In this document: piece after piece, positions 21,461-63,417 of the stretch
Position numbering within the stretch: position 1 is the stretch's first letter
How the letters are laid out: each line of letters opens with the position of its first letter
Assembly (NCBI RefSeq): GCF_001399755.1
Contig: NZ_LJCP01000010.1
Location: forward strand, 372,001-436,000
DNA length: 64,000 bases
DNA from: Thiohalorhabdus denitrificans
GTDB lineage: Bacteria > Pseudomonadota > Gammaproteobacteria > Thiohalorhabdales > Thiohalorhabdaceae
Reading direction: 5' to 3'
Position numbers and translations under genes: made by a program
Notes under the pieces: model-generated
Told to the model about the DNA's origin: nothing
What the model saw: the letters and a program-made list of their open reading frames with translations, nothing else
Database searches by the model: none

Positions 21461-24400
21461 TTATTCCTCCGCGCCCGGAACCTCCACATAGCCGTCGGAC
21501 GCATCGGTCATCTCCCGCTTGCCGTCGGTGATGCGGGCGACGATGCGGTACTTACCGGCGGGGAGATCCGGCAACCGCCACTTGTAGCTGTCGCCCTGGC
21601 GGTCGGGGTCTTCCTCCAGGCCGCCGACGATCACCGTTTCCTCCCCGGGCTCGCCGCCCACCGGCCGGTAGCTCAGGGTGATCCGGGCGTTGTCGTCGGC
21701 GTCCAGATCCTTCCAGCGGATGTGGACGCGGTCGCCGGGCTCCTTCTCCTGGGCGCCGTTGGGGCCTTTCAGGCGGATGAACGGCTGGCCGCCGCCGTCG
21801 CCGATGACCACCTCGTTGGGGGCGCGAACCTCCTTGCGGGTGTTGCCGTCGTCGATCACCGCGTAGGGGAAGTAGACGCCGTCCTCCAGGCCCGAGAGGT
21901 CCCACAGGTAGCGGTCGCCCCGCCCGTCCGGATCCTCCTTCAGGCCCTCCACGATCACGCCGCGGCCGCCGCCGTTTCCGTCCCGATCGTAGTAGTGGTC
22001 GATGGTGGCATTGCTGTCCGGGTCGCGGTCGTACCAGTGGAGCAGGGCGTGGTTCTTGTCGGGCGCGCCGGGCTCCTTAGTCGGGGCTTCGTCCTCCTCC
22101 CGCTCGGCCGGCTCCTCGGGTTCTTCCTCCGGCATGGGCTGCTTGCCCCGGCCGTCCCCGGGACGCTGGCCGTTGCCGTTGTTGCCACCGCCCACGGTCC
22201 CGGGCAGGTCGTACTTCACCTTGTGCAGCCGCATGACCGGCTCGTCGTTGACCCCATCGGCGTCGGCGTAGAACACCACGAAGTCCATCCAGTCCGAGGC
22301 CAGGCCGTGCTCGTCCACGGCCCGGGCCCGCCAGTAGTACCAGCCGCTCTCGGGGACGGGGCTGTCGATCCGCCAGGATTCCTCCCCGGATTCCCCGGCG
22401 GCCAGCCGCTCGCCCAGGCCGCCCTTCTTGGCCGGGGCGTAGAGCTCGAACTCGTAGTGCAGCTCGTCCCGGTCCACGTCCCTGGAGGGGTTCACCTGCA
22501 GGGTGGGCTGGAGGGTGCCCACCCAGCCGCCCTGCCCCGGGTTGGCCGGGGTGGGCACGGTGGGCGGATCGTTGAACTGGTTGACGAAGAAGCTGCCGGC
22601 GGTCCAGGGGCTGTCGACCTCGCCGTCGGAGGCCTTGACCCGCCAGAAATACTCGGTGTTGTCCGCCAGCCCGGACACCGGCCAGGCGGCCGTGCCCCGG
22701 TCCCCTTCGGGGATGCCGCCCGAGGTCCGCTTGGCGTCGCTGTCAAAGGTGGCCGTCCGGTCCAGCTGGAAGTGGTACGTCACCGGCTCCATCTCCGGAT
22801 CCTCAGCGTCGCGCGCCAGCAGGTCCACATCCAGGGTCGTCACCTCAACGCCGTCGACAGGCGCCTCGATGGCGGGCGCCGTGGGGGCGTCGTTGCGGGT
22901 GTTGACGAAGAAACCCCCCACGGGGCCGGCGGTCTCCGCGCCGTGCTCGTCCACGGCGGTGGCGCGCCAGTGGTACCAGGTGTTCTCCGTCAGCTCGTCG
23001 GGCACCGTCCAGGCGGTGGTGCCCTCGTCCCCCTCGGACACGCCGGTGGTGGCAGCGACCTCCTGCGTCAGCGCCTCGTCGACGTAGACGGCGAAGTCGT
23101 AGGTGAGAGCGTCCTCGTCCACGTCGGTGCTGTTGGTCACCTCCAGCACGGGGGTAAAGGTGTCCACGAAGGTGCCGTCCGCCGGGCCGCTGATGGCGAA
23201 CTCCCCGGGCGCGTCGTTCTCCGTGTTGACGAAGAAGGTGCCGCCCACCCATTCGCTGTGGATGTCCGCGCCAAAGGCCCGCGCCCGCCAGTGGAACCAG
23301 TGGTTGTCCGTAAGCGCGGGGGACACCGTCCAGGAAGTGGTTTCCTCGGCCTCGGGGACGTCGAGGACATGGGCGACGCGCTCGGACATCTCGGCGTCGG
23401 CGTACACCTCGAACTCGTAGGTGACGTCGAACAGGTCGGAGTGCTCGCTGTTGATCAGGGTCAGCTCCGGGGTCTGCGTGGTGACCTCGCTGCCCGCCTC
23501 CGGGGCCTTGGGCTCGGGCTCACCCGGTCCGGGGGGCCGGGTGGGATCCATGCCCTCCTCGTACTCCTCCAGGTCGGTGTAGCCGTCGCCGTCGTAGTCG
23601 CCGGTGCCGTCCCGGTCGAGGGTGCCGAAGTGCTCCAGCTCCCACTCGTCCTTCATGCCGTCGCCGTCGCGGTCGTGAATCCAGCGCACCTCGATGGGGG
23701 CGGACCGGGTGCTTTCCAGCTCGCCGTCGGAGGCGCGGAAGGTAACGTTGTAGGTGCCCTGCTGGCCCAGCTCCGGAGTCCACTCGAAGGTGCCGGTGCC
23801 GTCGCCGTTGTCGGTGAATCCGGCCCCTTCGGGAAGATTGTCCACGGACAGGGTGATGGGGTCGCCGTTGGCGTCGGCGGCCTCCACGCCAAAGGCCAGC
23901 GTTTCGGTCTCCACCACCACCTGAGGGGGGATGTAGGCGATCTCCGGGGCCACCGGCCCGATGTCCGGGGCCTTCATCACCACCGTGTAGGAGCCGGTGG
24001 TGTTGGCGTCGAAGAGGTGAAGGCCGTAGTCCCAGGTCAGATCGTCGTTGCGCTCCCGGGCGAGCCAGGCGTTGCGCGCGTTGATCTCCTTACCGTCGGA
24101 GCGGTAGACCGCCTCGATCTCCTTCTGACCCAGATAGGGGTCCCGGACCCGGGCGTGGATGAAGCCGTCCTGCTCGGGGACGGTGAAGCGGTGATGGACC
24201 CGGTCGCCGTCCTCCTTGGTGCGCTCCAGGGCGGCGTCGGCGGAGAGGTCCGCCACCTCGCTGTCGGTGCCGTTGGACTCGTACACGGTCAGGAAATCGC
24301 CGTCCCGGGCCAGAAAGTCCCGCACGGCGTCCCGCCCGGACAGATCCACCAGGACATCGCGCACCAGGAAATGGGTGTTGACGGCGTCGATGACGGAGGT

Positions 24401-25288
24401 CAGCGAGCCGCCCAGCTCGTCAGAGTGGCTGAAGGAGGCGTCGAAATCGGTGAAGCGCCCGGAGAGGTCGGTCACCATGCGCCAGCGCCCCACCATGGCC
24501 TCGCCGGCGGGGATGCGGCCGAAGTCCAGCAGGAGGGTCGGCTCGGCGGGCTCGTTCTGGATGTAGCTCTCCAGGATCTCGAAGCTGATGTCCAGGCCCT
24601 GCTCGTTGGCCACGATCTCGGGCTGGGCGGAGTCGATGGAAACCGACTCCGCGGGGCCGCTGCCGTTGTTGCGGATGCGCACCCCCAGGGTGAAGGGCTC
24701 GGCCGGCTCCTCCTCCTCGGTGAAGGGATCGTCGGCGTAGACCTGCTCCTTGAGGAAGTAATCCAGAGTCAGCAGGGGCAGCGGCTTGACGGTGATGGAA
24801 TCGGGGGCGACGTCGGTCTCGTGATGCTCGCCGGCAAGGTCGTATTCCAGGGTGGCCCCGACGAAGAAGAGCTTGCCGTCGGAGACCTGCCCCGCCGCCC
24901 CGGGCGAGGGAATGATCTGCCAGTGGATGTCCGCGGAAGTGGACGGCATGACCGTGCCCGTGCCGTCCACCGCGTCGATGCCGTCCAGGGAATCCTGGCG
25001 GATAAAGAAAGTGGCGTCTTCGCTGTCCGGATCGGAGGACGCTACAACGGGGTTGCCATCCTTATCGGTGAATTGGACGGAAACGGCAACGTTCTCCAGT
25101 GGATCCGTGTCCAGCCCGTTGTTGATGCGCATGTGCGCTTCAAAGGCCTGCCGCTCCAGAGTGAGTTCCTGCTCAATCTGGAGCTTGACCTGGGCGCAAA
25201 GGGATTCCTGGGCAAGGGCCTGCCCAACCTGGGTGAGGAGGCCCAGGAAGCAGGCAAGCGAAATGACCACCTTTTTGGGAAACATCAT
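21461..25288 (-). CDS. Exported multi-domain Ig/FN3 protein with Asp-rich calcium-type repeat
   Basis: 1275 aa. Sec signal peptide at 1-26 (cleavage after QALA). Residues about 150-345 hold a non-catalytic beta-sandwich region (NNGSGPAESVSI, LDFGRIPAGEAMVGRW) of a type I associate with large exported proteins near YD-repeat genes. Then a putative Ig domain (about 447-536, DGTGTFEWTPELGQQGTY), an Asp-rich thrombospondin-3-like segment (538-582, DRDGDGMKDEWE and DYDGDGYTDLEEY), four FN3-like repeats of about 105 aa (583-1017) each ending W-x-G-x-FFVN-x2-ND-x-P or similar, a Glu/Pro linker (1050-1078), and two related C-terminal modules (1079-1163, 1168-1270). No membrane anchor or sorting signal seen. 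Probable surface or released binding protein; last gene of the four-gene set. AAGGGGGG precedes two adjacent ATGs. Confidence 0.75.
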   Translation of the reverse strand: MMFPKKVVISLACFLGLLTQVGQALAQESLCAQVKLQIEQELTLERQAFEAHMRINNGLDTDPLENVAVSVQFTDKDGNPVVASSDPDSEDATFFIRQDSLDGIDAVDGTGTVMPSTSADIHWQIIPSPGAAGQVSDGKLFFVGATLEYDLAGEHHETDVAPDSITVKPLPLLTLDYFLKEQVYADDPFTEEEEPAEPFTLGVRIRNNGSGPAESVSIDSAQPEIVANEQGLDISFEILESYIQNEPAEPTLLLDFGRIPAGEAMVGRWRMVTDLSGRFTDFDASFSHSDELGGSLTSVIDAVNTHFLVRDVLVDLSGRDAVRDFLARDGDFLTVYESNGTDSEVADLSADAALERTKEDGDRVHHRFTVPEQDGFIHARVRDPYLGQKEIEAVYRSDGKEINARNAWLARERNDDLTWDYGLHLFDANTTGSYTVVMKAPDIGPVAPEIAYIPPQVVVETETLAFGVEAADANGDPITLSVDNLPEGAGFTDNGDGTGTFEWTPELGQQGTYNVTFRASDGELESTRSAPIEVRWIHDRDGDGMKDEWELEHFGTLDRDGTGDYDGDGYTDLEEYEEGMDPTRPPGPGEPEPKAPEAGSEVTTQTPELTLINSEHSDLFDVTYEFEVYADAEMSERVAHVLDVPEAEETTSWTVSPALTDNHWFHWRARAFGADIHSEWVGGTFFVNTENDAPGEFAISGPADGTFVDTFTPVLEVTNSTDVDEDALTYDFAVYVDEALTQEVAATTGVSEGDEGTTAWTVPDELTENTWYHWRATAVDEHGAETAGPVGGFFVNTRNDAPTAPAIEAPVDGVEVTTLDVDLLARDAEDPEMEPVTYHFQLDRTATFDSDAKRTSGGIPEGDRGTAAWPVSGLADNTEYFWRVKASDGEVDSPWTAGSFFVNQFNDPPTVPTPANPGQGGWVGTLQPTLQVNPSRDVDRDELHYEFELYAPAKKGGLGERLAAGESGEESWRIDSPVPESGWYYWRARAVDEHGLASDWMDFVVFYADADGVNDEPVMRLHKVKYDLPGTVGGGNNGNGQRPGDGRGKQPMPEEEPEEPAEREEDEAPTKEPGAPDKNHALLHWYDRDPDSNATIDHYYDRDGNGGGRGVIVEGLKEDPDGRGDRYLWDLSGLEDGVYFPYAVIDDGNTRKEVRAPNEVVIGDGGGQPFIRLKGPNGAQEKEPGDRVHIRWKDLDADDNARITLSYRPVGGEPGEETVIVGGLEEDPDRQGDSYKWRLPDLPAGKYRIVARITDGKREMTDASDGYVEVPGAEE

Positions 25289-25379
25289 CCCCCCTTACCC
25301 AGGAAAGATTGATCGAAAAGCTAAAAACCGATCAGACCATTCAAATCGTTCAAAAACGAAACCAGCAGTTGCGCTACAC

Positions 25380-25736
25380 CTATTGGGCCCCGCCTAGCGA
25401 ATAGGGCTCATTCATCGGAAAGGAGATAAGCCGGCCCTACTACAGATAGCCCCGCCACACTTCTCGGAAATTGACGTTGCGGCTGTAGCGCCGGTGCGCT
25501 TCATGCATCGCCGGGGCCAGCCCTTCCGTCGGCTCCGGCACGGCAATCAAATGTAGGTGATTCGTCATCAGGCAGCAGGTCCAGATCGCCACCCCATAGT
25601 AGGTACACTAGGTCACCAGGAGCTCGAAATAGGCATGATAGTCCTGATCGCCAAAAAAGATCTTTTGCCGACAGTTGCCCAGCTAGATTATGTAGTGCGG
25701 AAATCCCGCCGCAACCAAGCGGGCCAATTTAGCCAT
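25380..25736 (-). pseudogene. Decayed REP-associated tyrosine transposase (RAYT, TnpA_REP)
   Basis: Read on the minus strand in a single frame from the ATG at 25736, the sequence gives MAKLARLVAAGFPHYII-stop-LGNCRQKIFFGDQDYHAYFELLVT-stop-(C)TYYGVAIWTCCLMTNHLHLIAVPEP then TEGLAPAMHEAHRRYSRNVNFREVWRGYL, two more stops, and GRLISFPMNEPYSLGGAQ-stop. This follows the RAYT/transposase-17 consensus (GNRRQ, FFGDEDY, CLMPNHVHLI, EAHRRYTR, NFREGWRG, WQGRF, FPMDEPY) almost residue for residue, including the HxH (HLH) of the HUH endonuclease. At least five in-frame stops, two of them where WQ is expected, and loss of the 3' part with the catalytic tyrosine show it is dead. It lies between the rhs gene and the FN3 gene. 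Confidence 0.85.
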
Positions 25737-25813
25737 GGGCCAAGCTCCAATCCCGTCTATTGCGATTTAAGTAAAGTGCCCCCGCAATTCACCCGTCCGG
25801 AATTAACGCATAC

Positions 25814-28800
25814 CTAATCACAGCAATCTAAACTTTCAATATTTGAATCGACAATTGTTGATTTCCCTATATACCCGGTCGCGTAAGCGCCAACACTTCC
25901 TGATTCGTCATTTTCATCATAGGACTTGCTTTCAGTATTACTGCCATCACTAATACTGAAATTAACTCCCTTTGAGGCCCCCCCAAGTCTAAGATAGGAG
26001 GCTCCAGCACTAGCTCTCCCCGCATATACCCCGGCCGCCAGTTCTGCATAGACCCCAGAAAGGACGTCTGGATCTGGGCATTTAAGGCCGTCTTGCAGAG
26101 TAACACCATTTGAACCAGAAAGTTCAACGACCTTCCTTGATGAGTTAATTCCCGCCCCGATCGCTAAGACAGTGGCCTCGGCTTTCTTTTCACAGTCTTT
26201 GCAAACAGCAGCCCATAAATCGAAAATGCTGCCCGTTGCTCCTGCATAAAGCCAAGAGACGCTAACCTGTACTCTGCTTCCTTTCCAGGTTACCAATCCA
26301 AGCGGATCAACCCCAGTAACCGGATTACCCTCTGCATAGGAGTAAGAGTTCCTTCCTGCCCGAAGAGGGTCCCTGGTCAAGTATCGTCCCGTTGAAGAAT
26401 TATAAAAACGATGAAAGTTATAATATAACCCGGTTTCATCATCTTTATAATGTCCCGGAAAAGATAGGTTGTTGGAAATTTCATTTATTGAAGCAACTCT
26501 TTCCCCAAAAGATCCATATTTTGCCGACCAAACAATTCCACCTTTTACATCCACCAATTTCTGGGGAACCCCCGAATGATCGTTTATATAGAAAAAGTAA
26601 TTTCCGGACTTTTTCATAAATTGAGGATTGGTTGTCCACTCCCCTTCCGGTTGATATCCATAGCTTTTTTGAACCTCACCGCCTCCATCAGTTTCAGCTA
26701 TAAGCCCTTTCTTGGAATAAACATATAATTTCAAACCATTTACAGTTTTCTTTTTGATACGTCGCCCAAAAGGGTCATAGGAATAAGAAGCTATTTTTTC
26801 ACCATCTTTCTTCACACTTGCCAATCTGCCTGCCACGTTATACTGGTATTTAGTCACCTCCCCGGTTTCGGTATTAGTTGTTTGAACCAAGTTGCCGTCG
26901 GCATCGAATTCCTGTTCGAATTCTCCGTAGTCAACCAATTGGTCGGACTCGTTGTATATCCATTCCCCGGTTGTATGGCTGTAGGTTTTGCGGTTTCCCA
27001 CAGCATCATAGGTATAGGCCTCGTCTGGTAAGGGATCGGGAGTTTTGGCCTGAATGAGCTGATCTAACGAACTGTAGCTATAGTTGTAGTCGCCATGCTC
27101 CGTAATCTTCTCGGTAAGATTGCCGGCGGCATCGTAGGTATACTCAAAGTCCAATAGCGGATTGCCGGCGGGATCCAGAGCTCGGATTTTTCCCAGCCGC
27201 ATCATGCGGTCGAAGAAATGCTCCTCCACCCCGCCGCCTGGCCGCATTATGCGAGTAGGCCGCATCCACTGGTAATCGTGGTAAGTAATCTCACCGAGGC
27301 CGGGAATCATGATCCCTTTTAAGCGGTTAGCGTCGTCATAGCGATAGTTGTAGGTGGTGCCGTCGGGTGCGGTGAAGGACTTTATCTTGCCGTTAACGTA
27401 GTAGGTGTAGCTGTAACTCTTGGTGAAATCGCCGTAATCGACAGTGGCGCCGATACGCCGCCCGGCGCTGTCGTAGGTGTAGGTTCCTGTGGTGACACTG
27501 CCGCTGTAGCCAGTCATCCGGCCGTCGGCGTCGTAGGTGAAGGCGACGGTGCGGTCTGGGCTAGCGGATGGATCGGTGTGGTAGGTACTCTTCACCCGCC
27601 GACCCGCAGCGTCATAGGTATGGCGAATGGCCTGGCCCCTGGCGTTGATCTTCTCCACCAGATTTCCAGCATTGTCGTATCGGTATTGGACAGTGTCCCC
27701 ATCCGGCCAGAGTATGGCAGTGCGGCGCCCTGCTAAGTCATACTGAAAACGGCGGATAGCAACCCCACGGGCATTCGTTACTTTAAGTAGGTTGTCATGA
27801 CTGTCGTAAGCGAACCTGGTAACACCTCCAGCAGGATCGATCTTCTTGGTCAGACGGCCAAGGGGGTCATATTCAAACCGAGTTGTCCGGCCTTTGGGAT
27901 CTGTCTCGGCCACAACTCGCCCCCCAGCGTCAAAGCTCTTCCTTATTACCTGCTCCAGGGTGGAGCCCTCCGCCTTGATAGTCTGAGTTCTCCGTCCTCT
28001 GGAATCGTAGGAGAACTTAGCAGCATAGGTTGGATAATTCGTTGAGCTTCGTAGCCGAGGATTGCCCGTATGGGTTTGATCGTAACCATAAGTTGTGGCA
28101 TTTCCCGCACCATCAATCACTTTGGTCAACCGACCCAAAGAATCATACTTTAAGTCCTGGCTCACCCCGGAAGGATCCGTAATATTAGTTAGCCGACCGC
28201 TCCGGTCATAGGCCAAGCGAATGGTGGCGCCCAGTGGATCCGTCATGGCCACTCGACGATCGTCTGCGTTGTACTCAAAAGAAAAAGAATTACCTAGAGG
28301 ATCGGTTAAGGCGATTCGGTTGCCCACCGCGTCGTATTCGTAGGTGGTTGCGTTACCTAGGGGATCGGCCTCCTCAATAAGATTACCGGCAGCATCGTAG
28401 CGCTTGGTCCAGGTCTCGCCCCGGGCATCCACCCGCTTGGTCACCTGTCCCAGCACGTTATGGCTGAACTTTTGAACCCCGCCCTCGGGCCCGGTACGCC
28501 TGATGACATTGCCGTACTGGTCGTATTCCAGCCGGATGGTTGCGTCCTCGGCTACGGCGTCACCTCCACGCGTGACAGTAGTTACTCTGTTGTACTGGTC
28601 GTATTCGTAGGAAGTTTCCCGCTCGGCCTCGGTCCCCACCGCCTCCACGACCCGTGTCCGGTTTCCGTCGGCGTCGTATTCGTAGCGTGTGACATTGCCG
28701 AGCTCGTCCACCTCCCTGGTCCGAAGGTCAGTCCCCGCCCGGTACTCGTAGCGCTGGCTGGAACCATCCGGGTGGGTAACTCGGATCAGGTTGTCCCACT

Positions 28801-29851: not shown

Positions 29852-29935
29852 TTTTTCCCCTTTTGGGCCTTTCCCGCACCGGCAAAAGAATTCACAAATG
29901 ACGCTTCCGCATCCGGCCCCACTTTCATGACCCCC

Positions 29936-32900
29936 TCAACCTCCGGCTCCGGTTCCGCCTACATTGCACACACAACTGTCCTCGTACGGACATTCCGGAG
30001 GACAGTTATCCCCGGAGCCGCCCAGGGACTCGTAAGAGGGCGTGGTTTCCTCCCCTACGGCCCACTCATCTTCCCCGCAATTCAGGCACTTGCCCGGGGA
30101 AGTATGGATAATTTCCCTTTCTTTACAGGAAGAAGGTGTATAAAACCAACATACCCCGGAGCTTCCGCTGGTGGTCGTGTCATTGGCACACTCGTAGTCG
30201 TAGGTAACCCCTCCACAGTGCTGGTAGGGCTCGCAGCCGCCGCCGGTTCCGGAGCCGTCGGGCTCGATGGGCTGCAGGGCCGTGATCCGGTAGGGCACCC
30301 GCACGGTCTCGCCGGCCTCCAGGGAGTCCGGGAGGCTGTCCATGAGCTCGTAGTGGTAGTGGGTACCGTCCTCCGGGATGGTTAGCTCGACGTTGTCGGC
30401 CCGGATCAGGCCCTCGTTGGTCAGAACAAGCTCGCCGTTGTAGACGTCCCCGGCCTCCATGGTCGGCAGGTTGACGCTGCTCGGCTCGACGCTCACCACC
30501 GCCGCCGGGACGTCGGTCTCGTAGGTAGTATCCAGCTCGATCTCATAGACATCCTCAATGGTGTCCTCGGTGACGGACCACTCCACGGTCACCAGGTTGT
30601 AGTCGAGGAACACCTCGTGGGTCCCGGTGACCCCGGCCCGCACTCGGAAGGACCCGGACTTGGCCTCGTGGTTGGAGGCGCTGGCGCGATAGCGGTAGGT
30701 GCCCGCCGGCAGGGCCTCGAACAGGGCCTCGCCCTGGTCGTCGGTGGTGGCGGTGCGCTCGACGCTCAGGACGTTCTCGTTCTGGATCTCGACGGTGGCC
30801 CCGGACAGGCCCGGGATGATGGTGCCGTCGTCGTCCTGGGTGCCGGTGTAGATGTCGGAGAGCTTGAACAGGGCCCCGCCCTCCCCGTCGAGGGTGACGG
30901 AGACCACCACCGGGATGTCGGTAACCACGCTTCCGCCGCTCATCACCCGCAGCAGGAAGCGGTAGACCCCCTCTTCCACCCCGGTTCCGGGCTCGGCCTG
31001 GATCAGAACCTCTTCCGAATCGCCCACGGCCAGCTCGCCCGGGTTCCGGGTGGTGACGATGTCGATCCAGTCGGGTGCGGGAGCGCCGGAATCCTCTTCC
31101 ACCAGCGCCAGGGATACGTCGGGCTGCGGCGCGAGGCCTTCGTTCTCCAGGACCATCCGCTCCTGGATGCTGCCGCCCTGCTGGACCCCGGTCTCGATGA
31201 AATCGGGACTGTGGGTCAGGACCGGCTCGGCGGCCGCCAGCTCGAAGTCCACCGTGATCGTCTCCAGGACGGTATCGCCGGCCTCGTCGCTCACCAGCCG
31301 CAGCACGGCCGTGCCGGTGTCCGGGGCGTCGGCGCCGGGCTCGAACCCGACCCGGATCTCGTCGCTGGCCTCGGGGTTCAGGTCCACCGAACCGCCAGGA
31401 TCTATGGACAGTCCGGGTAGGAAGGAGCCGGAGGGCTGGTCGGCCTCGACGTATTCCAGGTGCAGGTTGGTGGCCGTGGTGCCGGCCCCGGCCTCGACGG
31501 TGACGGGGATCTCCTCGGCCCGGTCGCGCACCGTCCGCAGGTCGACGGCGCTGGGCGCGGCGAACACCCGGCTTATGACGAACCGGGCCTGGTCGGGCCG
31601 GTCCACCACGTCCGGATGGACGGCGCTCACCTCGTAGACCCCGGATTCCCCTTCCAGCGGAGTGAAGGTGTGGCTGAAGGCTCCTTCGCTGTCGGTGTAG
31701 ACCTCGTAGGTGCGCTCGAAGCCGGCGTTCCGGATGGCCAGGGTCAGGGGCACGGAGGCCAGGGGGTCGCCGGTATCGCGCGCCAGGGCCCGGCCGCTGA
31801 TGACGAAGTCCCGGGCCTCGAAGGCCTGCTCGGGCTCGACCCCAGTGACCTCCCCCTTGTAGGCGGTGCTCACAAGGGACAGATCCTTGCGGCTAGATGG
31901 CCCGGCCATGCTGGCGGCAGACGGTTCGCCGAGGTTGTAGTGGACGCGGTCGACCTTCGCGGCCAGGGTCACCTCGTCCGGGGCCTCGGAAGGCACCGCC
32001 ATGGGCTGCCAGTCGGTGGTGAAGGTCTCCCCGGCGGGGATGCGAGCCACCGAGCGGCCGTCGGCACGGGTAGTCACCAGGCTGCCCACTGCCTGCCGAA
32101 GGGGCTGCACCGCCAGCACGTTGCCGTCGGCGTCGGTGAGCCGGAAGCGCACCTCGTCGCTGGGCCGGCTGCCGCCGGAGGTGGCGGTGATCAGCTCCAC
32201 CGGGGCATCGCCGGTGTTGGTCAGGGCGAACCGGGCCTGGCCCTCGGCGCCGCGCACGAAGTCCTTGGTCAAGACTTCCAGGGCGAGGCCGCCCTCGCGG
32301 ACGGTGAGACTGCCGCTGCGGACCAGGCGGGCGCTGGAGCCGGCGGCGGGCCGGCTGCGGAAGGTGGCCTCCAGGTCCGCCTCGGCCGGTAAGGTGTCAT
32401 GGCCGCCGACCACCACCGGAACCGTCTTGCCCTCCCCGGCCCCCAGGGCGAATTCCGGGCTGACCACCGCGTGGCCGCCGAGGTTGAGCTCCAGGCGGGC
32501 CCGGTCCACCGGGGCCGAGCCCTCGTTGACCACCTCGTATTCCACCCGGTTCATCACGCCCCGCCGGATGGACTCGGTCCGCAGGTTCAGGGCCACGTCC
32601 GGCAGGACCAGGATCCGCGACGCGCTCTCGGCCCCGTTGGCGTCCACCGCCGTCAGGGCGTAGCGGCGCTGGTTGCCGCTGTAGCCGGCGTCGGTGTAGC
32701 CGGTGGCTTCCAGGGGCTCGTCGGTGAAGGAAACGGCCAGGCCCTCCGGTCCCACGGCCAGGTCGTAGCCGGCGATCTGGTCGGGATTGGGGTGGCTCCA
32801 GCTGAGCGCCGGGTCCTCGGTGCCGGTCTGGCTCACGTGGAAGGTGCTTACCGGGAGCAGGTCGACGTTCAGGTATTCCGACCCGGAGGGGGCGGACTCG

Positions 32901-35900
32901 TTGCCGGCCCCGTCCACCGCGGTCACCGCGTAGGTGTGGGCGTCGGTGGAGGGCGAGCCGTCCACCGTCACGGTGTCCGCGAGGCCGGTCTGTAGGGGCT
33001 CCAGGCCGTCCACGCTGGTGATCTCGGCCCCCTCCGCCCGGTAGAGGTTATAGGCGACGGCTTCCTCGGTGTCCGGGGCCTGCCAGACGGCCTCGATGCC
33101 GTCGCCGGTCATGGTCAGGGAGAGGCCGGTGGGCGCCGGGGGCGCGGTGGCATCAGCGGTCACGGTCGCGGTGGCGCTCAGGTCGCTTTCCGCCTGCTGG
33201 CCGTTGGCCTCCCGGATGCTGGTGACGGCGTAGGTGTACTCGCCCTCCTGGGCGGTGCTGTCGGGGAAGGCGGTCTGGCTGTCGGTCAGGGAATGGGCGG
33301 TCAGCTCCGGCTCGCCGGGGGCCTGGCGGTACACCCGGTAATCGGCGGCATCCTCCACCGCCCGCCAGGCCAGCTCAACCGCGCCGTCCGGCCCGGCCTC
33401 GGCGGTCAGGCCCTCGGGAGCCGCCAGCGCCGGCAGCGCTTCCTGGTAGACCTCCAGGCTGGGGGAGCCCTCGATGCGCGTGCCGATGTTGCCCAGGTCG
33501 TCGGCGGCCTCGAAGGCGAAGCTCAGCTCCTCGGCGCTGTCCAGGCCGGCATCGGCCGGCAGGGTGAAGCTGCCCCGCCAGCTGCGCTCGTCGGTGCGCA
33601 CCAGGGTATCCACCGGGGTCTCGCCGCTGTCGCCGAGGCGGTAGGCCAGGCTCGGCCCGTCGGTGCCGGCGGCCTCCTCGGTCAGGCCCAGATCCACGGT
33701 AACCGTGACGGGGCTGGCCTCATAGTTGCGGATCGGGGAGGACGGGCTCACCGTGATCTCGCTGACCGACGGTCCGTCGGTGTCGAGGGTCAGGGTGGCG
33801 CCCTCTTCCACCTGTGTGCCCCGGTTGCCGATGACGTCCCGGGCCGAGAACACGGCGTAGGCGGTGCCGGAGGGGGTGTCCGGCTCGATGCGGAAGGCCC
33901 CCTGGTATTCGGTCTCGCTCACCCGGTCGAGGGAGACGCTGATGGGGGTGCCGCCGTCGGGCGAGATGCTCAAGAAGGGCGTGGCCAGGAGCGGCTCGGA
34001 GACCGTCAGGTCTACCTCCACCAGGCCGGTGCCGAAACGCCCGGTCTCGGCGTCGTAGGCGCCCTGGGGCCGGTACTCGATGGCGGCGGTGGGGGGCGTG
34101 GCGTCCGAGACCCCGTCCACCGCGGCCGAAACCTCGCTTTCGGTGCCCAGGTCGTTGACCGCGGTCACGCGGTAGTAATAGGTGCCTTCCTCCGCCGGCA
34201 GGTCGGTGTAGCCGGTGCCGGTCAGCAGGTCGACATTGAGGCGCTGCGCCTGCGCGAGGCTGTCGAAGGCCTCCCCGGCGCGGTAGATGTTGTAGCCGGC
34301 GACTCGGTCGTCGCTGGCCTCGTCCCAGCTCAGGCGCAGTTCGCCCTGCTCCCGGACCTCCAGGCCGAGCCCCGTGGGGGCATCGGGAATGGAGGAGTCG
34401 AGGGTTACGGTGACCCCCGCGCTCTTAGCTCCGGTGCCGCCCCGGTTGCGGCCGGCCGCCTCGATGGTGTTGGTCCCCTCGTCGAGAGATACGGCCGCCT
34501 CGAAGCTGCCGTCGCTACCCACTGCCACGGGGTCACCCACCTGGGTGCCGTTGCGGTGGAGGAGCACCTCGGCGGCATCCCCCGCCTGGCCCGCGACCGT
34601 TACGGAGCCGTCATTGGTGACCAGCCCGTCGCTCGGCTCGGCAATGGAGGGGGCGTCCGGCGGGGCCAGGGCCACCTCCAATCCCAGGGTCTCCTCGGCG
34701 GTATTGCCCAGGGTGTCGGTGGCGCGAACGGTGAGGTCATGGGGGCCGTCGGCGGTTTTCGCCAGATCCCAGTAGGTCCGCGCGGGGGAGCTGCCGCTGC
34801 CGTCCGTGCCCAGTACCTCACCATCGAGGAGGAACTCCACTCGCGCCAGGCCGCTGGGATCGCTGGCGGGCACGGCGAGGAAACCGGCGGCCTCCACCAC
34901 GCTGCCGGCGCCCAGATCCTCGCCGCTGAGGGAGACGGTGCCGATGTCCGGGCCGCTGGTGTCCTCCTCCGGCGTGGCGGTGACGGTGGCTACCGCCGGA
35001 TCCTCGCCGCCGGAGGCGTTCACGGTGGTCACGGCCAGATGGTAGGTGGTGCCCGTCTCCAGGCCGGCCACGCTGCCTTCGGTGGTGCCGGCGGGAACGG
35101 TGGCCTTGGGCTCCAGGCCGGAGACGCCGGTGAAGTCGTCGGGCGAGGCGTATATGGCGTAATGGTCCACGTGCTCGCCCGGGGCCACCGGGTCCCAGGA
35201 GACCTCGACCAATGTGGTGTTGTTGCGGGCCTGCACACCCACGGGATTGGGAAGCAGGGTCACCGCCTCGCCGCTCAGGCCTTCGCTCTCGTTGCCCGAG
35301 CCGTCCATGGCGGTAATGCGAACGGGATAGCTGGTGGCGGGGCTCAGGCCCGTGGCCGCGTAGCTGGTGGTCCCGGCCGGGACGCTGACGCCGTCGGTAT
35401 CGCCGTCGAAATAGACCCGGTAATGATCCAGGTCGCCGGGCTCGTCAGGGGACGGCGACCAGCTGAAGGCGATGCGGTCGCTATCGACTTCCGCCTCCAG
35501 ATCGGTGGGGTCGCCGGGGGCCTGGGTGTCGGCGGTGGTAACGTCGACCGGGGTGACCTCCGGATTGCGGCTACCCAGCTCATCCACGGCCACCACGGCC
35601 AGGTAATAGGTCCGGTCCCGGACCAGACCGCTTAGCTCATGCCGCTGGGTGCCGCCTGGGACCTCGGCCACCTTTTCGGCTTCGGTGATATCGGTAAAGG
35701 AAGTATCGCCTTGGTAGACCGCATAATGGGCAATGTCGCCCCCGTTGGCGGCCTCATCGTAGGCGGTCCAGTCCAATTCAACAGAGGTGCCGTCCGGAAG
35801 GGCCTCGGCGCTCGGAGTCACCGGCCCTGGGGCCTCGTTGTCGAAGGTAACGGTTGCCGTAACCGCCTCGCTCTCGTTTCCGGCGCGGTCCCGGGAGGTT

Positions 35901-38900
35901 ACCTGGAAGGTGTTTTCACCCTCGGCCAGATCGTGGGCGACCTGCCAGTCGCTGCTTTCGGTGTTCCCGACCACCCGCTGACCGTCAATGCGAATGGAGG
36001 CGTGGGCGTCCTTGGTCCCGGAGAGGGTGATTCGGGACTCGTTGGTGACCTCGGGCAAATCGTCCAGAACCGGTGCCGCGGGGGGAACCCTGTCCAGAGT
36101 GAAGGTCCATTCCCGGACTTCGGAGGTCAGGCCCAGCTCGTCCTGAAGCTGGACGGTCACCTGGTAATCGTCGTCGCTGAGACGGGTTTCCGGCTGGAAA
36201 AGGACTGAGCCGCTGTCCTTACTCGTGGTGCCCGCCATTTCAGCCCCGCCCCGCGTCACCGTCAGCTTGGATTCGTCCAGATCGAGGCCGCTGCCGGTCT
36301 CCGTGTAATCGACCTGGATCACCTGCTCCTCGTTCACGAAGGTGCCGGCCCCAGGCTGGACACGGTCGATGCGGGGAGCAATGCTGTCGACGAAGAACAG
36401 CACCCGAAGCTTCTCGGAAGGGATTCCGTCGCTGTCCTTCGCGTAGACCAGAACTTCGTTGTCGCCCTGGTCCAGATCCACGTCCGCGGACCAGGTTCCG
36501 GAGCCGATAGACACCGCTTCACGACCATCGATCCAAATGGACGTATTGTCGGGGCGATCGCCTTCCAGGGTGACCGTGGTGATGGTCAGCTTGGTCACCG
36601 CCGGGGCCAGTGGGTAATTGGTAACCGTGGGCGGAGGGCCCTCGATCACCAGCTCGTACACGCCCTCGGTTTCGGCCGTGGTGTTGCCGCCCGCATCCTG
36701 GGCGCCGGCCACGTCCACCACCACCGGATTCTCCCATCCGGATTCCAGAGGGATCGGGGGTGTGGTGTAGGTGTCGTTGTCGAAACGGGAACTGGACCAG
36801 GACCCGCCGGCGGGAGCGGAAAGCTCCTGGCCTCCGTCCGTGCGGAGCCGCACATCGGGCTCCACCGCGGTGTCCATGGCGCTGTCGAAGAGGATCTCCA
36901 CCCGGAAGTCCTCCTCCGCAGGAACCGGATTCTGGGGGGTCCCCCGCGCCTCCAAAAGCTCCGGAGGGACGGAATCCTCCAGGGTCAGGGAAGCCGTGTT
37001 GTCAACGGGATTGCCGGCCACGTCGGTCAACCGGTCGGAGGGGGTGACCTCCTCCGACCCCTTAATCGTGAAGTCACTGGTGACCTCGATGGTCAGCTGG
37101 GTGTTGCGCTCGCTCCAACCGATCCGGTTTGGGGAGCCATAGGACCGGTCTTCGGGAGAAAGGTGGGTGTCGGCGTCCTGGGTGCCGTCCCGGATCACCG
37201 AGGCCGCCATGGGCTCGGTAAAGACGAAGGTGTAGGTATCGCCCGGGCTTACTTCTCCATCACCGTCGGGGTCGTCAAATACGACCTCTTCGATCTCCGG
37301 CGGGGTGAAGTCCGTCGGGTTCTTGAGGACCGTGCCGTCTTCGCCGTCCTGATAACCCCGCCCTTTGACGGCCTCCAGGGCTACAAGGTTGGCATTGTCA
37401 ACATCGACATAAATCGCGATCCGCCCCCCAGCGCCACCACCGCCCGCGCCACTCCCCTGCGAGCCGCCGTCGCCGCCGTTGGCATGGATCCCGCCCGATC
37501 CCGCCAAAATGCCCGCGTCAACCCAAATCGAGCCGCCCGCACCGCCGCCGCCGGCGTCCCAATCGGAGTTCCCCCCGGCATACCCGTCGGCCGCAATGGC
37601 CCCGTCCACCATCAACGTGCCGCCCACCTGCAGCCGGACCGCACCGCCGCCGTGGCCACCCGCCGCATAACTGCCGCCGCCACCGCCCGACCCCAGTGCC
37701 GTCGGAGCTTCGTGGTCCCCGTACTCCGAACCGCCCGCGCCACCACCGCTACCGGCACCGGGGTGACCCTCGCCCCCACCGCCGCCGTGGCCCGCGCCGC
37801 CGCCGGACCGATAGGTGGAGTCCGAACCGCCCCCCGGACCGCCACCACCCTGCCTCTGGGAACCGCCCCGATAGCCCCAGCCGGAGACATCGACCGTCCC
37901 GGCCACCGTCATGTCCTCGTCCACGGCCAGCAGCAGGCCATAGGCTTGGTCACCACCGGGTCGCCGGTGCGAGAGAACGGCTTCTTCCGCCACCTCCACC
38001 AACCCCACCTGCGGCAGCTGCCCAATATCCAGCGGCACGCTGAAGACAAACCGGCCCTTTTCCACCGCTAGACTGTCGGCCGTGAATGCCGTCTCCGACG
38101 CCAGCTGCAACGCCGCGTCGCCTTCCGCCCGTAGCCGCCCGACATGGAACTCGGTCACCCCGGATTCCAGGACAATGCGCGCACCCGCCCGGAGGGTCAG
38201 GGACGCCGGATCCCCGGCGGAGGCGTCCAGGGTCAAAGAGCTCGACCCGGAGGCGCTACTGTCGCTGCTGCCCCGGGCGTCCACTACCAATTCCTTGGTG
38301 GGGCTGGAGGCACCAGTCTCGGTGTAGATCGTCCCGCCACCGCCGCCCTGGTACCCCCGACCACCCGTCGCCGAGTAGCTCCAGTCCCCGTTAGCCAACT
38401 CGGCGTACACCGCAATCCGCCCCCCGGCGCCACCACCGCCCGCGCCACTCCCCTGCGAGCCGCCGTCGCCGCCGTTGGCATGGATCCCGCCCGATCCCGC
38501 CAAAATGCCCGCGTCAACCCAAATCGAGCCGCCCGCACCGCCGCCGCCGGCGTCCCAATCGGAGTTCCCCCCGGCATACCCGTCGGCCGCAATGGCCCCG
38601 TCCACCATCAACGTGCCGCCCACCTGCAGCCGGACCGCACCGCCGCCGTGGCCACCCGCCGCATAACTGCCGCCGCCACCGCCCGACCCCAGTGCCGTCG
38701 GAGCTTCGTGGTCCCCGTACTCCGAACCGCCCGCGCCACCACCGCTACCGGCACCGGGGTGACCCTCGCCCCCACCGCCGCCGTGGCCCGCGCCGCCGCC
38801 GGACCGATAGGTGGAGTCCGAACCGCCCCCCGGACCGCCACCACCCTGCCTCTGGGAACCGCCCCGATAGCCCCAGCCGGAGACGTCAATCCGGCCCCCG

Positions 38901-39262
38901 CCATTCCCCTGATCCCCTTCCAGCGTCAGGTTGGCCGCCTGCAGCAGGGAAAGATTGGCACGGATTAGGCCGCCGTCCTCGACGGTTATATCTCCGCCCA
39001 TCTCCATACGGGCCTTTTCCGCCTGGTTCGTCCGGATGACGCCCCCGTTGCGGACGATTAGGTGGCCAGCCCCCTCGACCACCTCCCCCTCGGCCAGGGT
39101 TTGGTCCGTGGTCACCTCGCAGGTGGTGTCCAGGGTGCCCGAATCGCAGCTGAAGGCCGCCCAGGCGGATTGGGGAAGCACAAGCAGGAAGGCCGTCACC
39201 ACCGCTTTGGCAGTCAGGCCACTGAGGGCGTCGAGGAAACGATCAGGCATCCCTAAAGGCAT
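29936..39262 (-). CDS. Giant exported glycine-rich / FN3 / CARDB-like protein (3108 aa)
   Basis: Signal peptide at about 1-35 (QSAWA-AF). Residues about 80-620 are a glycine-rich region with two copies of a 153-residue block (127-279 and 459-611, identical DNA) of the pattern GGGGGSYAAGGHGGGAVRL, ILAGSGGIHANGGDG, probably a parallel beta-helix. Next come bacterial Ig-like domains (about 625-1150), a long run of fibronectin type III modules (about 1150-2210), a CARDB-like domain (about 2220-2290, RVEYEVVNEGSAPVDRARLEL), further beta-sandwiches, a carboxypeptidase-regulatory/SdrD-type domain (2797-2877, GEALFEALPAGTYRYRASA) and a cysteine-rich tail (3008-3108, 11 Cys). No autotransporter, LPXTG, T1SS or PEP-CTERM signal is seen. 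ATG at 39262 follows the stop of the transglutaminase-like gene by 3 nt with GGAAGG 7 nt upstream: tight coupling. Likely a surface adhesin or scaffold. Confidence 0.8.
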   Translation of the reverse strand: MPLGMPDRFLDALSGLTAKAVVTAFLLVLPQSAWAAFSCDSGTLDTTCEVTTDQTLAEGEVVEGAGHLIVRNGGVIRTNQAEKARMEMGGDITVEDGGLIRANLSLLQAANLTLEGDQGNGGGRIDVSGWGYRGGSQRQGGGGPGGGSDSTYRSGGGAGHGGGGGEGHPGAGSGGGAGGSEYGDHEAPTALGSGGGGGSYAAGGHGGGAVRLQVGGTLMVDGAIAADGYAGGNSDWDAGGGGAGGSIWVDAGILAGSGGIHANGGDGGSQGSGAGGGGAGGRIAVYAELANGDWSYSATGGRGYQGGGGGTIYTETGASSPTKELVVDARGSSDSSASGSSSLTLDASAGDPASLTLRAGARIVLESGVTEFHVGRLRAEGDAALQLASETAFTADSLAVEKGRFVFSVPLDIGQLPQVGLVEVAEEAVLSHRRPGGDQAYGLLLAVDEDMTVAGTVDVSGWGYRGGSQRQGGGGPGGGSDSTYRSGGGAGHGGGGGEGHPGAGSGGGAGGSEYGDHEAPTALGSGGGGGSYAAGGHGGGAVRLQVGGTLMVDGAIAADGYAGGNSDWDAGGGGAGGSIWVDAGILAGSGGIHANGGDGGSQGSGAGGGGAGGRIAIYVDVDNANLVALEAVKGRGYQDGEDGTVLKNPTDFTPPEIEEVVFDDPDGDGEVSPGDTYTFVFTEPMAASVIRDGTQDADTHLSPEDRSYGSPNRIGWSERNTQLTIEVTSDFTIKGSEEVTPSDRLTDVAGNPVDNTASLTLEDSVPPELLEARGTPQNPVPAEEDFRVEILFDSAMDTAVEPDVRLRTDGGQELSAPAGGSWSSSRFDNDTYTTPPIPLESGWENPVVVDVAGAQDAGGNTTAETEGVYELVIEGPPPTVTNYPLAPAVTKLTITTVTLEGDRPDNTSIWIDGREAVSIGSGTWSADVDLDQGDNEVLVYAKDSDGIPSEKLRVLFFVDSIAPRIDRVQPGAGTFVNEEQVIQVDYTETGSGLDLDESKLTVTRGGAEMAGTTSKDSGSVLFQPETRLSDDDYQVTVQLQDELGLTSEVREWTFTLDRVPPAAPVLDDLPEVTNESRITLSGTKDAHASIRIDGQRVVGNTESSDWQVAHDLAEGENTFQVTSRDRAGNESEAVTATVTFDNEAPGPVTPSAEALPDGTSVELDWTAYDEAANGGDIAHYAVYQGDTSFTDITEAEKVAEVPGGTQRHELSGLVRDRTYYLAVVAVDELGSRNPEVTPVDVTTADTQAPGDPTDLEAEVDSDRIAFSWSPSPDEPGDLDHYRVYFDGDTDGVSVPAGTTSYAATGLSPATSYPVRITAMDGSGNESEGLSGEAVTLLPNPVGVQARNNTTLVEVSWDPVAPGEHVDHYAIYASPDDFTGVSGLEPKATVPAGTTEGSVAGLETGTTYHLAVTTVNASGGEDPAVATVTATPEEDTSGPDIGTVSLSGEDLGAGSVVEAAGFLAVPASDPSGLARVEFLLDGEVLGTDGSGSSPARTYWDLAKTADGPHDLTVRATDTLGNTAEETLGLEVALAPPDAPSIAEPSDGLVTNDGSVTVAGQAGDAAEVLLHRNGTQVGDPVAVGSDGSFEAAVSLDEGTNTIEAAGRNRGGTGAKSAGVTVTLDSSIPDAPTGLGLEVREQGELRLSWDEASDDRVAGYNIYRAGEAFDSLAQAQRLNVDLLTGTGYTDLPAEEGTYYYRVTAVNDLGTESEVSAAVDGVSDATPPTAAIEYRPQGAYDAETGRFGTGLVEVDLTVSEPLLATPFLSISPDGGTPISVSLDRVSETEYQGAFRIEPDTPSGTAYAVFSARDVIGNRGTQVEEGATLTLDTDGPSVSEITVSPSSPIRNYEASPVTVTVDLGLTEEAAGTDGPSLAYRLGDSGETPVDTLVRTDERSWRGSFTLPADAGLDSAEELSFAFEAADDLGNIGTRIEGSPSLEVYQEALPALAAPEGLTAEAGPDGAVELAWRAVEDAADYRVYRQAPGEPELTAHSLTDSQTAFPDSTAQEGEYTYAVTSIREANGQQAESDLSATATVTADATAPPAPTGLSLTMTGDGIEAVWQAPDTEEAVAYNLYRAEGAEITSVDGLEPLQTGLADTVTVDGSPSTDAHTYAVTAVDGAGNESAPSGSEYLNVDLLPVSTFHVSQTGTEDPALSWSHPNPDQIAGYDLAVGPEGLAVSFTDEPLEATGYTDAGYSGNQRRYALTAVDANGAESASRILVLPDVALNLRTESIRRGVMNRVEYEVVNEGSAPVDRARLELNLGGHAVVSPEFALGAGEGKTVPVVVGGHDTLPAEADLEATFRSRPAAGSSARLVRSGSLTVREGGLALEVLTKDFVRGAEGQARFALTNTGDAPVELITATSGGSRPSDEVRFRLTDADGNVLAVQPLRQAVGSLVTTRADGRSVARIPAGETFTTDWQPMAVPSEAPDEVTLAAKVDRVHYNLGEPSAASMAGPSSRKDLSLVSTAYKGEVTGVEPEQAFEARDFVISGRALARDTGDPLASVPLTLAIRNAGFERTYEVYTDSEGAFSHTFTPLEGESGVYEVSAVHPDVVDRPDQARFVISRVFAAPSAVDLRTVRDRAEEIPVTVEAGAGTTATNLHLEYVEADQPSGSFLPGLSIDPGGSVDLNPEASDEIRVGFEPGADAPDTGTAVLRLVSDEAGDTVLETITVDFELAAAEPVLTHSPDFIETGVQQGGSIQERMVLENEGLAPQPDVSLALVEEDSGAPAPDWIDIVTTRNPGELAVGDSEEVLIQAEPGTGVEEGVYRFLLRVMSGGSVVTDIPVVVSVTLDGEGGALFKLSDIYTGTQDDDGTIIPGLSGATVEIQNENVLSVERTATTDDQGEALFEALPAGTYRYRASASNHEAKSGSFRVRAGVTGTHEVFLDYNLVTVEWSVTEDTIEDVYEIELDTTYETDVPAAVVSVEPSSVNLPTMEAGDVYNGELVLTNEGLIRADNVELTIPEDGTHYHYELMDSLPDSLEAGETVRVPYRITALQPIEPDGSGTGGGCEPYQHCGGVTYDYECANDTTTSGSSGVCWFYTPSSCKEREIIHTSPGKCLNCGEDEWAVGEETTPSYESLGGSGDNCPPECPYEDSCVCNVGGTGAGG
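37431..37888. repeat. Long direct repeat inside the giant gene, copy 2 (protein 459-611)
   Basis: 458 bp that read the same as 38427-38884 by eye; the copies are offset by 996 bp, i.e. 332 codons in frame. The flanking mismatches that end the match are at 37430/38426 and 37889/38885. Confidence 0.85.
38427..38884. repeat. Long direct repeat inside the giant gene, copy 1 (protein 127-279)
   Basis: Partner of 37431-37888, same orientation, glycine-rich coding sequence. Even third codon positions agree, so the copies are recent or kept alike by gene conversion; recombination between them would delete exactly 332 codons without a frameshift. Confidence 0.85.
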
Positions 39263-39265
39263 GGG

Positions 39266-40168
39266 TCAGCCTTCCATCCGGATGGAGACCGATTCCTGAT
39301 CGGTCCGGAAAAAGGACTGCGTTGCGGAGAGACCGGCCTCTTCCTCATCCGGCGAGAAAACGCGGAAGGCGATGTGGCCGGGGATTCCTTCTTCGAGTCG
39401 TTCGTTGACCGGATCCGTGACCCAGGCCTCACCTTCCGGCCAGGCAGCCACCCAGTTGTGGAAGTCTTCGGGCGACAGGACACTATTGCCCGAGGTGGGG
39501 AAGCCGGCTACGCCCACGCTCGGGATTTCGTTGGCGCGGAGCAGGGCCAGGCTCAAGCTCATGGCCTCGGTGCAGTCGCCGGTCCGGTTCTCCAGGGCGT
39601 ACAGGGCCCCCCGGTCCTCGGCGATGTATCCCTCGTAGGCGATGTTGTCGACGGCCCACCGGTGGGTGCCGCGGAGGGTGGCCCGGGGGCTTTCCGGATC
39701 GGCTAAGGAATCGGCCAGCTTCCGGATGCGGGGATGGTCGGCCGGAGCAAGTTCCGAAGGCTTCAGAAGCTCCCCGAAAGGATAGGTCTTTTTCACCGGA
39801 TTGGGCTCACGGGCTAGGCGCAGCCGGGCGGTGACCCGGACAACCGCCTGTCCATGCGGCGGGAGGTCCTGAAGGGTGAAGTGAAGGACCTGGTTCCCCA
39901 GGGCGTCCTCTTCCAGCCGGTAGGGATGCGAGGCCTCGATCCCTTCCAGCCTCTGGGTGGGGGTGCGCTTGACCGGGGCGAGGGTGCGGAACCGCACGGT
40001 TTCCACGGCCCGGTTATCGAGATTCTGGACGGTGAACCCGTACCGGACCGTCCGCTCCACCGGATAGCCGGGCTGCTCGTTACCGCCCTGCCCCTGGACG
40101 TACGCCAGACCCCCGGCCGTAAGCAGCACAGCCAGGAGGGCGGTTACCGAGCCGAACCGCAATGTCAC
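39266..40168 (-). CDS. Transglutaminase-like cysteine protease/ligase family protein, exported
   Basis: 300 aa from a GTG at 40168; AGGA lies about 12 nt upstream. An N-terminal hydrophobic segment (about 5-25) is a signal peptide or anchor, so the rest is periplasmic. Residues 35-125 are a beta-sandwich-like N-terminal part; the transglutaminase core has the full triad Cys199 (NRTGDCTEAMSL), His237 (EDFHNWVAAW) and Asp252 (WVTDPVNE). Family members cross-link, hydrolyse or otherwise act on amide bonds; the target is unknown. It is the first gene after a strong promoter and directly upstream of the giant gene (3-nt gap), so the giant protein or a partner is the obvious candidate substrate. 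Confidence 0.85.
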   Translation of the reverse strand: MTLRFGSVTALLAVLLTAGGLAYVQGQGGNEQPGYPVERTVRYGFTVQNLDNRAVETVRFRTLAPVKRTPTQRLEGIEASHPYRLEEDALGNQVLHFTLQDLPPHGQAVVRVTARLRLAREPNPVKKTYPFGELLKPSELAPADHPRIRKLADSLADPESPRATLRGTHRWAVDNIAYEGYIAEDRGALYALENRTGDCTEAMSLSLALLRANEIPSVGVAGFPTSGNSVLSPEDFHNWVAAWPEGEAWVTDPVNERLEEGIPGHIAFRVFSPDEEEAGLSATQSFFRTDQESVSIRMEG

Positions 40169-40508: not shown

Positions 40509-40537
40509 TTTATATCAAGCACGAAACGAAGGGTCAA
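40509..40537 (-). promoter_or_regulatory. Near-consensus sigma-70 promoter of the transglutaminase-giant-rhs operon
   Basis: Minus strand: TTGACC (40537-40532), 17-bp spacer, TATAAA (40514-40509). Predicted start near 40502. It is the best promoter match I found in the window and points at the accessory genes. Confidence 0.7.
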
Positions 40538-57892: not shown

Positions 57893-58798
57893 CTAGGCCT
57901 TGCCGGCCATCCGCGCCATGCGGAGCACCATCTCCCCGGAGAGCAGGAACGGCGGCGCCCACGCACCGCCCAGGGGCGGTCCCCCCGCGGGCGGCCCCAC
58001 CTCCGCCTCCTGGTCCGCCGCGCGGACATGGCGCTTGCGAACTTGGGGCTCGCCCTCCGCGTGAGCGGCCAGCAGGGCCTTGTGGGCGAGGATGTTGACC
58101 TGACGGGGGATTCCCCGGGTGCGCCGGTACAGGGCCTGCAAGGCATCCGCCCGAAACAGGGGGTCGCCCCGCCGGCCCGCCACGCGCAGCCGGTGCTCCA
58201 GATAGCTGCCCAGGTCCTCGCGGCGCAACGGCACGAGCCGAAAGGAATGCGTCACCTTCTCCCGCAGGGGAAGCAGGGCGGGGTCCTCCAGCCGGAGGTC
58301 CAACTCCGGCTGGCCCATGAGCACGATGCGCAGGAGCTTGGCCCGGGCCGTCTCCAGTCCGGCCAGGAGACGCAGCTGCTCCAGGGTCTCCAGGGGCAGG
58401 GCCTGAGCCTCGTCCAGCACGAGCACCACCGGCCGGCCCCCTTCCCACGACCGCAGCACGCTGCCCTTGACGGCCTCCAGCAGATCGGCCAGATCGCGCC
58501 CCTCGGGGTTGAGCCCAAGCTCCCGCGCCAGGGCACCCACCAATTCCCCCCCACGTAGGACGGGGTCCTGGATGTAGGCCAGAGCGGCCTCGCCTTCCAT
58601 GACCCGCAGGAAGCGCCGCCCCAGGGTGGTCTTCCCCGTGCCCACCTCGCCGACGATTTTGATGAGGCTGCCTCCCGACCGAACGCCCTGCACCAGGGTG
58701 CCGAAGGCCTCCCGACGGACCGGATCGTTGAAGAAGAACGCCGTATCCGAGGTCAGGGCAAACGGCTCATCCCGCAGTCCGTAGAAATCCCTGTACAC
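57893..58798 (-). CDS. mshM: MSHA biogenesis ATPase MshM (ExeA/GspA-type AAA)
   Basis: 301 aa from a GTG at 58798 with GGGGAGG 5 nt upstream; the longer open frame overlaps mshL. Begins [15 protein letters not shown], the ExeA-family start (FYGL-x-x-PF), Walker [10 protein letters not shown] (50-58), Walker [12 protein letters not shown], then sensor [14 protein letters not shown] and the C-terminal [18 protein letters not shown]. No peptidoglycan-binding domain. Probably helps place the secretin; last gene of the msh block here. Confidence 0.85.
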
Positions 58799-58829
58799 CG
58801 GCCCTCCCCTTTTTGCTGTGCGGCCGCGC

Positions 58830-63252: not shown

Positions 63253-63417
63253 TTGCAGAGCCGGAGTCCTGGTGGTTGGCCGGATATCCCCGAAAAATGT
63301 TCCGGATGCCTTCCTGCCTCCCCCCAGAGCCCGGAAAGATCCGTTGCTGGAATCCCCCCCGGCACAGATCTACCCTAATCCTATAGGAAAACTTCCACCC
63401 GGTCTAAGGATTAACCC
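63253..63417 (-). promoter_or_regulatory. Probable promoter region of the mshI operon
   Basis: 165-bp gap after mshQ. On the minus strand a TTAGAC / 18 bp / TAGGAT pair and a CCTATAGG palindrome lie near 63378-63411, in an AT-richer stretch. The match is weak; the region is the only place for a promoter of the msh block. Confidence 0.35.

Follow-up and report, generated by a model that had tools for sequence, protein, structure and literature searches.

Four adjacent genes of Thiohalorhabdus denitrificans encode a transglutaminase-fold enzyme (TG), a giant protein of 3,108 residues, a Rhs protein built of YD repeats and a protein with immunoglobulin (Ig)- and FN3-like domains that we call P4. 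We consider it probable, at roughly 60%, that this block represents, in compact form, a conserved system that exports Rhs polymorphic toxins through Sec and a machine of the type II secretion system (T2SS) kind and displays them at the cell surface. The block lies in a stretch of 64,000 nucleotides (NZ_LJCP01000010.1, positions 372,001 to 436,000), hereafter the window, whose numbering is used throughout. The reading is carried by the linkage of the same components across phyla, by gene fusions between them and by the toxin tips of the linked Rhs proteins in relatives.

All four open reading frames (ORFs) are intact and large and lie on the minus strand. ORF inspection confirmed the positions first assigned to them and the gaps of 3 nt between TG and the giant and 84 nt between the giant and Rhs; the gap between Rhs and P4 is 525 nt. 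The block and the parts of it used below are:

39266..40168, minus strand: TG, transglutaminase-fold enzyme, 300 aa, GTG start; Transglut_core (PF01841, 44.5 bits against a cut-off of 23)
29936..39262, minus strand: giant, 3108 aa; Sec signal, Gly-rich N-terminal part, Big/Glucodextran_B/FN3 repeats and a conserved C-terminal module
30125..32569, minus strand: GIANTC, the conserved ~815-aa C-terminal module of the giant; profile match of 1163 bits
25814..29851, minus strand: Rhs, predicted Sec-exported YD-repeat shell protein, 1345 aa, GTG start; 16 RHS_repeat stretches (PF05593), PF03527 and the TIGR03696 core (72.5 bits against a cut-off of 32.5)
25817..26293, minus strand: C-terminal tip of Rhs, 159 aa after the DPLGL motif; Gly/Ser/Ala-rich, in a low-GC region
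21461..25288, minus strand: P4, predicted exported protein, 1275 aa; Ig, TSP3 and FN3-like domains in a Pfam scan
23654..25231, minus strand: P4N, the N-terminal region of P4, with ~420 aa outside any Pfam family followed by a He_PIG/Big_9 Ig domain

We define the gene set as P4N, GIANTC, Rhs and TG encoded on the same strand in a span of ~20 kb or less, an arrangement that the window itself displays. Conserved linkage across distant taxa had been named in the original prediction as the check on such a system, and it came out positive. Searches of 369 genomes of the same class with GIANTC, P4N and TG gave 5, 8 and 6 matches, respectively (for TG counting orthologue-level matches, the other 38 being weak and generic), and every one of the six TG genomes carries P4N on the same contig (hypergeometric p ~ 8e-12). 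A scan of GTDB contigs with the P4N alignment yielded 177 relatives, from which 80 loci were kept and searched with profiles in all frames. At least one partner is present in 74 of them (TG in 43, GIANTC in 41, a rhodanese-like protein in 34, RHS in 32 and T2SS-like genes in 20–23), the loci with none being mostly short contigs, and all 150 instances of TG, rhodanese, GIANTC and RHS lie on the strand of P4N (150/150). The spacing between TG and P4N has a median of 391 bp in 52 loci, and in 20 of 22 loci GIANTC either ends 245–677 bp before the N-terminal domain of Rhs (396 bp in the window) or is fused with it. GIANTC, found in 47 loci by profile search, is elsewhere fused to P4N (20 loci) or placed just before Rhs, and it is fused to RHS in locus L141 and on Methylomonas plasmids. 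The loci come from Pseudomonadota, Desulfobacterota (Thermodesulfobacteriota), Myxococcota and several other phyla. Sequence comparison therefore marks P4N, GIANTC, Rhs proteins of a single N-terminal family, TG and a rhodanese-like protein that is absent from the window as a co-inherited set.

The set is arranged differently from lineage to lineage, and in Burkholderiales and Xanthomonadales T2SS-like genes often form its core, accompanied by a toxin tip and its immunity gene. In Burkholderiales and Xanthomonadales the order is giant, Rhs, one or more small genes, P4, GspG, GspF, GspE, further T2SS- or type IV pilus-like genes and a secretin; the complete cluster of Eleftheria terrae encodes an Ig-like giant, RHS, an ankyrin protein, P4, GspG, GspF, GspE, secretin, pseudopilins, rhodanese and TG, and in nine further genomes of the Burkholderiales type, whose flanks had earlier been cut, TG stands at or just past the end of the T2SS-like block. 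Desulfobacterota show TG, a P4N–GIANTC fusion and rhodanese, then a beta-helix giant of 4.4–5.3 kaa that ends in RHS repeats; these repeats, just downstream of P4N, match in position in four genomes, and in L066, L096, L099 and L138 divergently oriented T2SS-like genes are located upstream. Other Gammaproteobacteria have rhodanese–TG–P4 or Rhs–P4–rhodanese–TG. Within the linked machine GspG passes its NCBIfam cut-off but three other components, GspF, GspE and the secretin, do not pass theirs, so we regard the machine as T2SS-like but divergent. At least one of the secreted rhodanese-like partners (for example, L083:7255-8082) lacks a Cys in the loop where the active site is expected and so may bind rather than act as a sulfurtransferase. 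Copies on plasmids (L016 and L018 from Methylomonas koyamae, L017/L163 of 784 kb from Eleftheria terrae), two of them typed as mobilizable, point to horizontal spread of the set. On Nostoc plasmid pTCL26-01_C (L162), eleven tandem 51-aa ORFs with a 211-bp period (22048-24313) lie beside a P4N-bearing giant and probably reflect the annotation of a DNA repeat array as genes.

The constant element of the set is P4N and not Rhs. In the Pfam scan the first ~420 residues of P4 match no family, the He_PIG/Big_9 domain beginning only beyond residue ~429, and a TSP3 motif and FN3-like domains complete the protein; P4N is 47–57% identical to 65 homologues. Modelled from the resulting 66-sequence alignment, it is predicted to be an all-beta chain of Ig-like domains with a predicted local distance difference test (pLDDT) score of 89.5. 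One clade of the P4N tree holds Burkholderiales and Xanthomonadales with one methanotroph, and a second holds most Desulfobacterota with Myxococcota, Nitrospirota, Elusimicrobiota, Fibrobacterota and Lentisphaerota; the window sits on a long end branch (0.95) near Gammaproteobacteria, with weak support.

The Rhs proteins linked to P4N carry tips with the features of antibacterial polymorphic toxins, as judged from family matches. We extracted 33 complete Rhs tips, two from the same genome and one being that of an unlinked Rhs on contig C6 of the window's genome. Among the tips of linked relatives, one from Thiothrix matches PT-HINT with an RNase, one from Rhodanobacter matches NucA/NucB and has a SUKH gene after it, and one from Lysobacter matches Tae4; further matches are to PT-HINT with a weak HNH, to HNH and to a phospholipase A2-like family. 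The original prediction had left the choice between a surface delivery and an adhesion machine; toxin delivery is now the better supported of the two because linked Rhs proteins have polymorphic toxin tips with immunity genes. In L132 and L136, P4N stands between two Rhs genes; the preceding one has a Gly-rich tip and the following one a toxin-type tip (HNH or PT-HINT), so the window may hold the first type only. Grouping the window tip by sequence with other Gly-rich tips gave no significant match. The Pfam scan found no SpvB or TcdB domains beside RHS in the window protein, which consequently does not classify as a Tc-toxin B/C component. The unlinked Rhs of the same genome (1645 aa; L024:9355-14760, G000:C6 ~255-261 kb) is followed by a 142-aa immunity-like membrane protein; we rejected this gene (C6, 255-260 kb) as a member of the set, as no TG, P4N or GIANTC lies nearby.

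Delivery of the window Rhs by a type VI secretion system (T6SS) is rejected, since TssC/VipB (PF05943) was not found in the window's genome (G000). The protein also has a Sec signal peptide, read as ending SAWG-A, and no PAAR match in the Pfam scan, which bears out the earlier claim that it differs from T6SS Rhs proteins. It shares a YD shell, a core domain and a variable C-terminal tip with T6SS effectors such as RhsA of P. protegens (PMC8765631) and Tse5 (PMC10684867), but has the Sec signal in place of their PAAR/VgrG-linked N-terminus. The genome encodes four secretins and a canonical T2SS at C10:~315-320 kb (secretin, ATPase, GspF and GspG present). When the secretin profile is built without the window protein, the canonical GspD scores highest of the four (289 bits) and the MSHA secretin lowest (117 bits), and the canonical T2SS is the best candidate exporter in this genome. 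An MSHA-type pilus was rejected for this role, because the seeming closeness of its secretin had come from the presence of the window protein in the profile. The MSHA-type cluster itself runs on the minus strand from window position 57893 to 64000 and on to ~446 kb of contig C10, 18 kb upstream of the block past housekeeping genes, and contains an ExeA-like ATPase, an MshL secretin, PilM-like and pilin-like genes and GspF- and GspE-like genes.

The closest parallel for such a route is Bcn-A, a secreted Rhs/YD bacteriocin of ~1400 aa from Xanthomonas perforans that kills other bacteria, has accessory (100–290 aa) and immunity genes, and loses activity in an xpsD (T2SS) mutant (PMC7259588); that paper's account of the locus mentions no transglutaminase, no giant Ig protein, no P4N and no dedicated T2SS. 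The Gram-positive WapA is likewise a Sec-exported YD-repeat polymorphic toxin, whereas the window Rhs belongs to a Gram-negative host, has no wall-binding domain that we could find and is accompanied by P4N, the giant and TG. Among open PubMed Central papers we found no description of the P4N–giant–TG companion set, although an earlier description elsewhere is possible. We give somewhat less than even odds to the wider proposal that relatives and window together represent an undescribed, phylum-spanning system in which Rhs toxins are carried on Ig/FN3 giants, marked by P4N and served by a dedicated, divergent T2SS-like exporter, a tethered TG and a rhodanese-like partner.

The catalytic triad of TG, Cys199–His237–Asp252, is invariant in an alignment of 26 homologues (L092, where the start of TG is masked by N in the record, was excluded). 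Its structural model (pLDDT 90.4) comprises an N-terminal hydrophobic helix (residues 5–26), a beta-sandwich and the TG core, and most relatives begin with a short positively charged N-terminus and a hydrophobic stretch with no obvious cleavage site. These features make anchorage in the inner membrane, on the periplasmic side, more likely for TG than release. An export signal had been claimed for every gene of the block; the giant, Rhs and P4 do have ordinary Sec signals, and TG is the one that departs from this. The nearest solved folds are 3isr, a putative cysteine protease (E 4e-16), and TgpA, both at only 17–19% identity, with TG2 and TG3 ranking lower; unlike TgpA, a multi-pass membrane protein, TG has a single N-terminal helix. 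The nearest functional analogue of TG and the giant is the LapG/LapA pair, in which a periplasmic transglutaminase-fold cysteine enzyme acts on a giant adhesin. TG differs from that retention-module system in family, as PF01841 is its sole match at E<=0.01 and LapG-type Peptidase_C93 (PF06035) gives none, and in its probable membrane anchor; the neighbourhoods read for the set also showed no type I secretion context. Because TG tracks P4N and persists without Rhs, its likeliest substrate would be P4 or the giant. Of the two targets first proposed, the giant thus gains and the Rhs shell loses, given the loci that have P4N and TG without Rhs.

Under the export-and-display reading, Sec would carry the giant, Rhs and P4 across the inner membrane and a T2SS-type machine would take them through the outer one; at the surface, the giant and P4 would serve as Ig/FN3 stalks on which the Rhs shell is held or presented. 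TG, tethered to the inner membrane and facing the periplasm, would direct its Cys–His–Asp chemistry at P4 or the giant, more probably as a maturation or release protease or amidase than as a Lys–Gln cross-linker. That TG is instead a true transglutaminase, joining P4 or the giant by isopeptide bonds to itself, to Rhs or to the envelope, would fit the Transglut_core fold, the invariant triad and the Lys- and Gln-bearing Ig repeats available as candidate substrates. We nevertheless think it unlikely, as the protease-like 3isr and TgpA outrank the cross-linking TG2 and TG3 among its structural neighbours and the bacterial transglutaminase-fold superfamily includes proteases such as LapG.

Several observations weigh against the export-and-display reading. 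The 159-aa window tip matches no Pfam or toxin family, and no intact immunity ORF lies in the expected place for one, the gap that separates Rhs from P4. Profile searches around the block found neither rhodanese nor T2SS-like genes. Foldseek with P4N returned generic Ig chains only. Xanthomonadales members have no orthologous TG, which shows that the set can do without this enzyme. In G121, the only other P4N genome searched from the genus of the window, transposase-like remnants separate TG from P4, and giant and Rhs are both missing. Such absences, with the transposase remnant of the window, would also be expected if the window copy were a decaying, no longer functional relic of a T2SS-linked toxin system; the intactness of four large ORFs and the retained canonical T2SS speak against this, and we hold it to be quite improbable. 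The lack of a toxin match and an immunity gene is compatible, too, with a role in adhesion or biofilm matrix, in which P4, the giant and Rhs would be structural, TG would cross-link or trim them, the Gly-rich window tip would be structural or adhesive and toxin tips would be a later use. Gly-rich, beta-like tips in G072, L116, L132 and L136, the presence of P4N and TG without Rhs in G121 and G110, and giants made of FN3, Ig and beta-helix repeats all favour such a role. Most complete linked tips, however, are diverse, several match antibacterial toxins with immunity genes, and AT-rich polymorphic tips are typical of toxin exchange, so that we give the matrix role a real but minor chance. A chance neighbourhood of unrelated exported adhesins, the alternative originally held against a joint system, could draw on the lower GC content of Rhs relative to its neighbours and on the transposase remnant. 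It is rejected by the same-strand linkage across phyla, the fusions and the co-occurrence within the class, and the long end branch of the window in the P4N tree does not suggest one recent transfer as the source of these statistics; we regard it as barely credible.

Other features of the block are less telling. As first reported, housekeeping genes flank it, dapD/dapE-like on one side and radA with mce/mla-like genes on the other by our reading of the sequence. The strong promoter and the terminator described at its ends are both downgraded to suggestive. The promoter-like site has 10 of 12 consensus matches but fails the −10 box rule of the consensus scan and lies ~340 nt 5' of the TG start codon; the hairpin is present, but terminator-like sites in the hairpin scan are no commoner than in shuffled sequence. 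The GC content is 47% in the 3' half of rhs and 54% in the whole gene, against 66–69% in its neighbours. By Pfam the giant contains fn3, Glucodextran_B, Big_13 and CarboxypepD_reg domains, and its Gly-rich part holds a pair of 159-aa segments (37415-38887) that probably arose by recent internal duplication or gene conversion. The corresponding positions are:

40509..40537, minus strand: promoter-like TTGACC-17-TATAAA
21409..21424, minus strand: terminator-like hairpin after P4 and before the convergent dapE; stem of ~10 bp by eye
25289..25813, minus strand: gap between Rhs and P4, with a decayed Y1/RAYT (IS200-like, REP-associated) transposase with several stops; readable piece at 25443-25607 (PF01797, E=6e-4, under the family cut-off and a fragment only)
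38411..38887, minus strand: Gly-rich repeat copy 1 in the giant, 159 aa identical to copy 2
37415..37891, minus strand: Gly-rich repeat copy 2 in the giant, 474/477 nt identical to copy 1

How Rhs proteins exported by Sec in Gram-negative bacteria reach other cells without a T6SS is a largely open question, for which we found one T2SS-dependent example, Bcn-A. By tying Rhs toxins to P4N, a T2SS-like machine and TG, the gene set makes this question directly testable. It also provides a specific substrate hypothesis for an uncharacterized enzyme family, that of TG, and, in P4N, a marker with which such loci can be located in many phyla.

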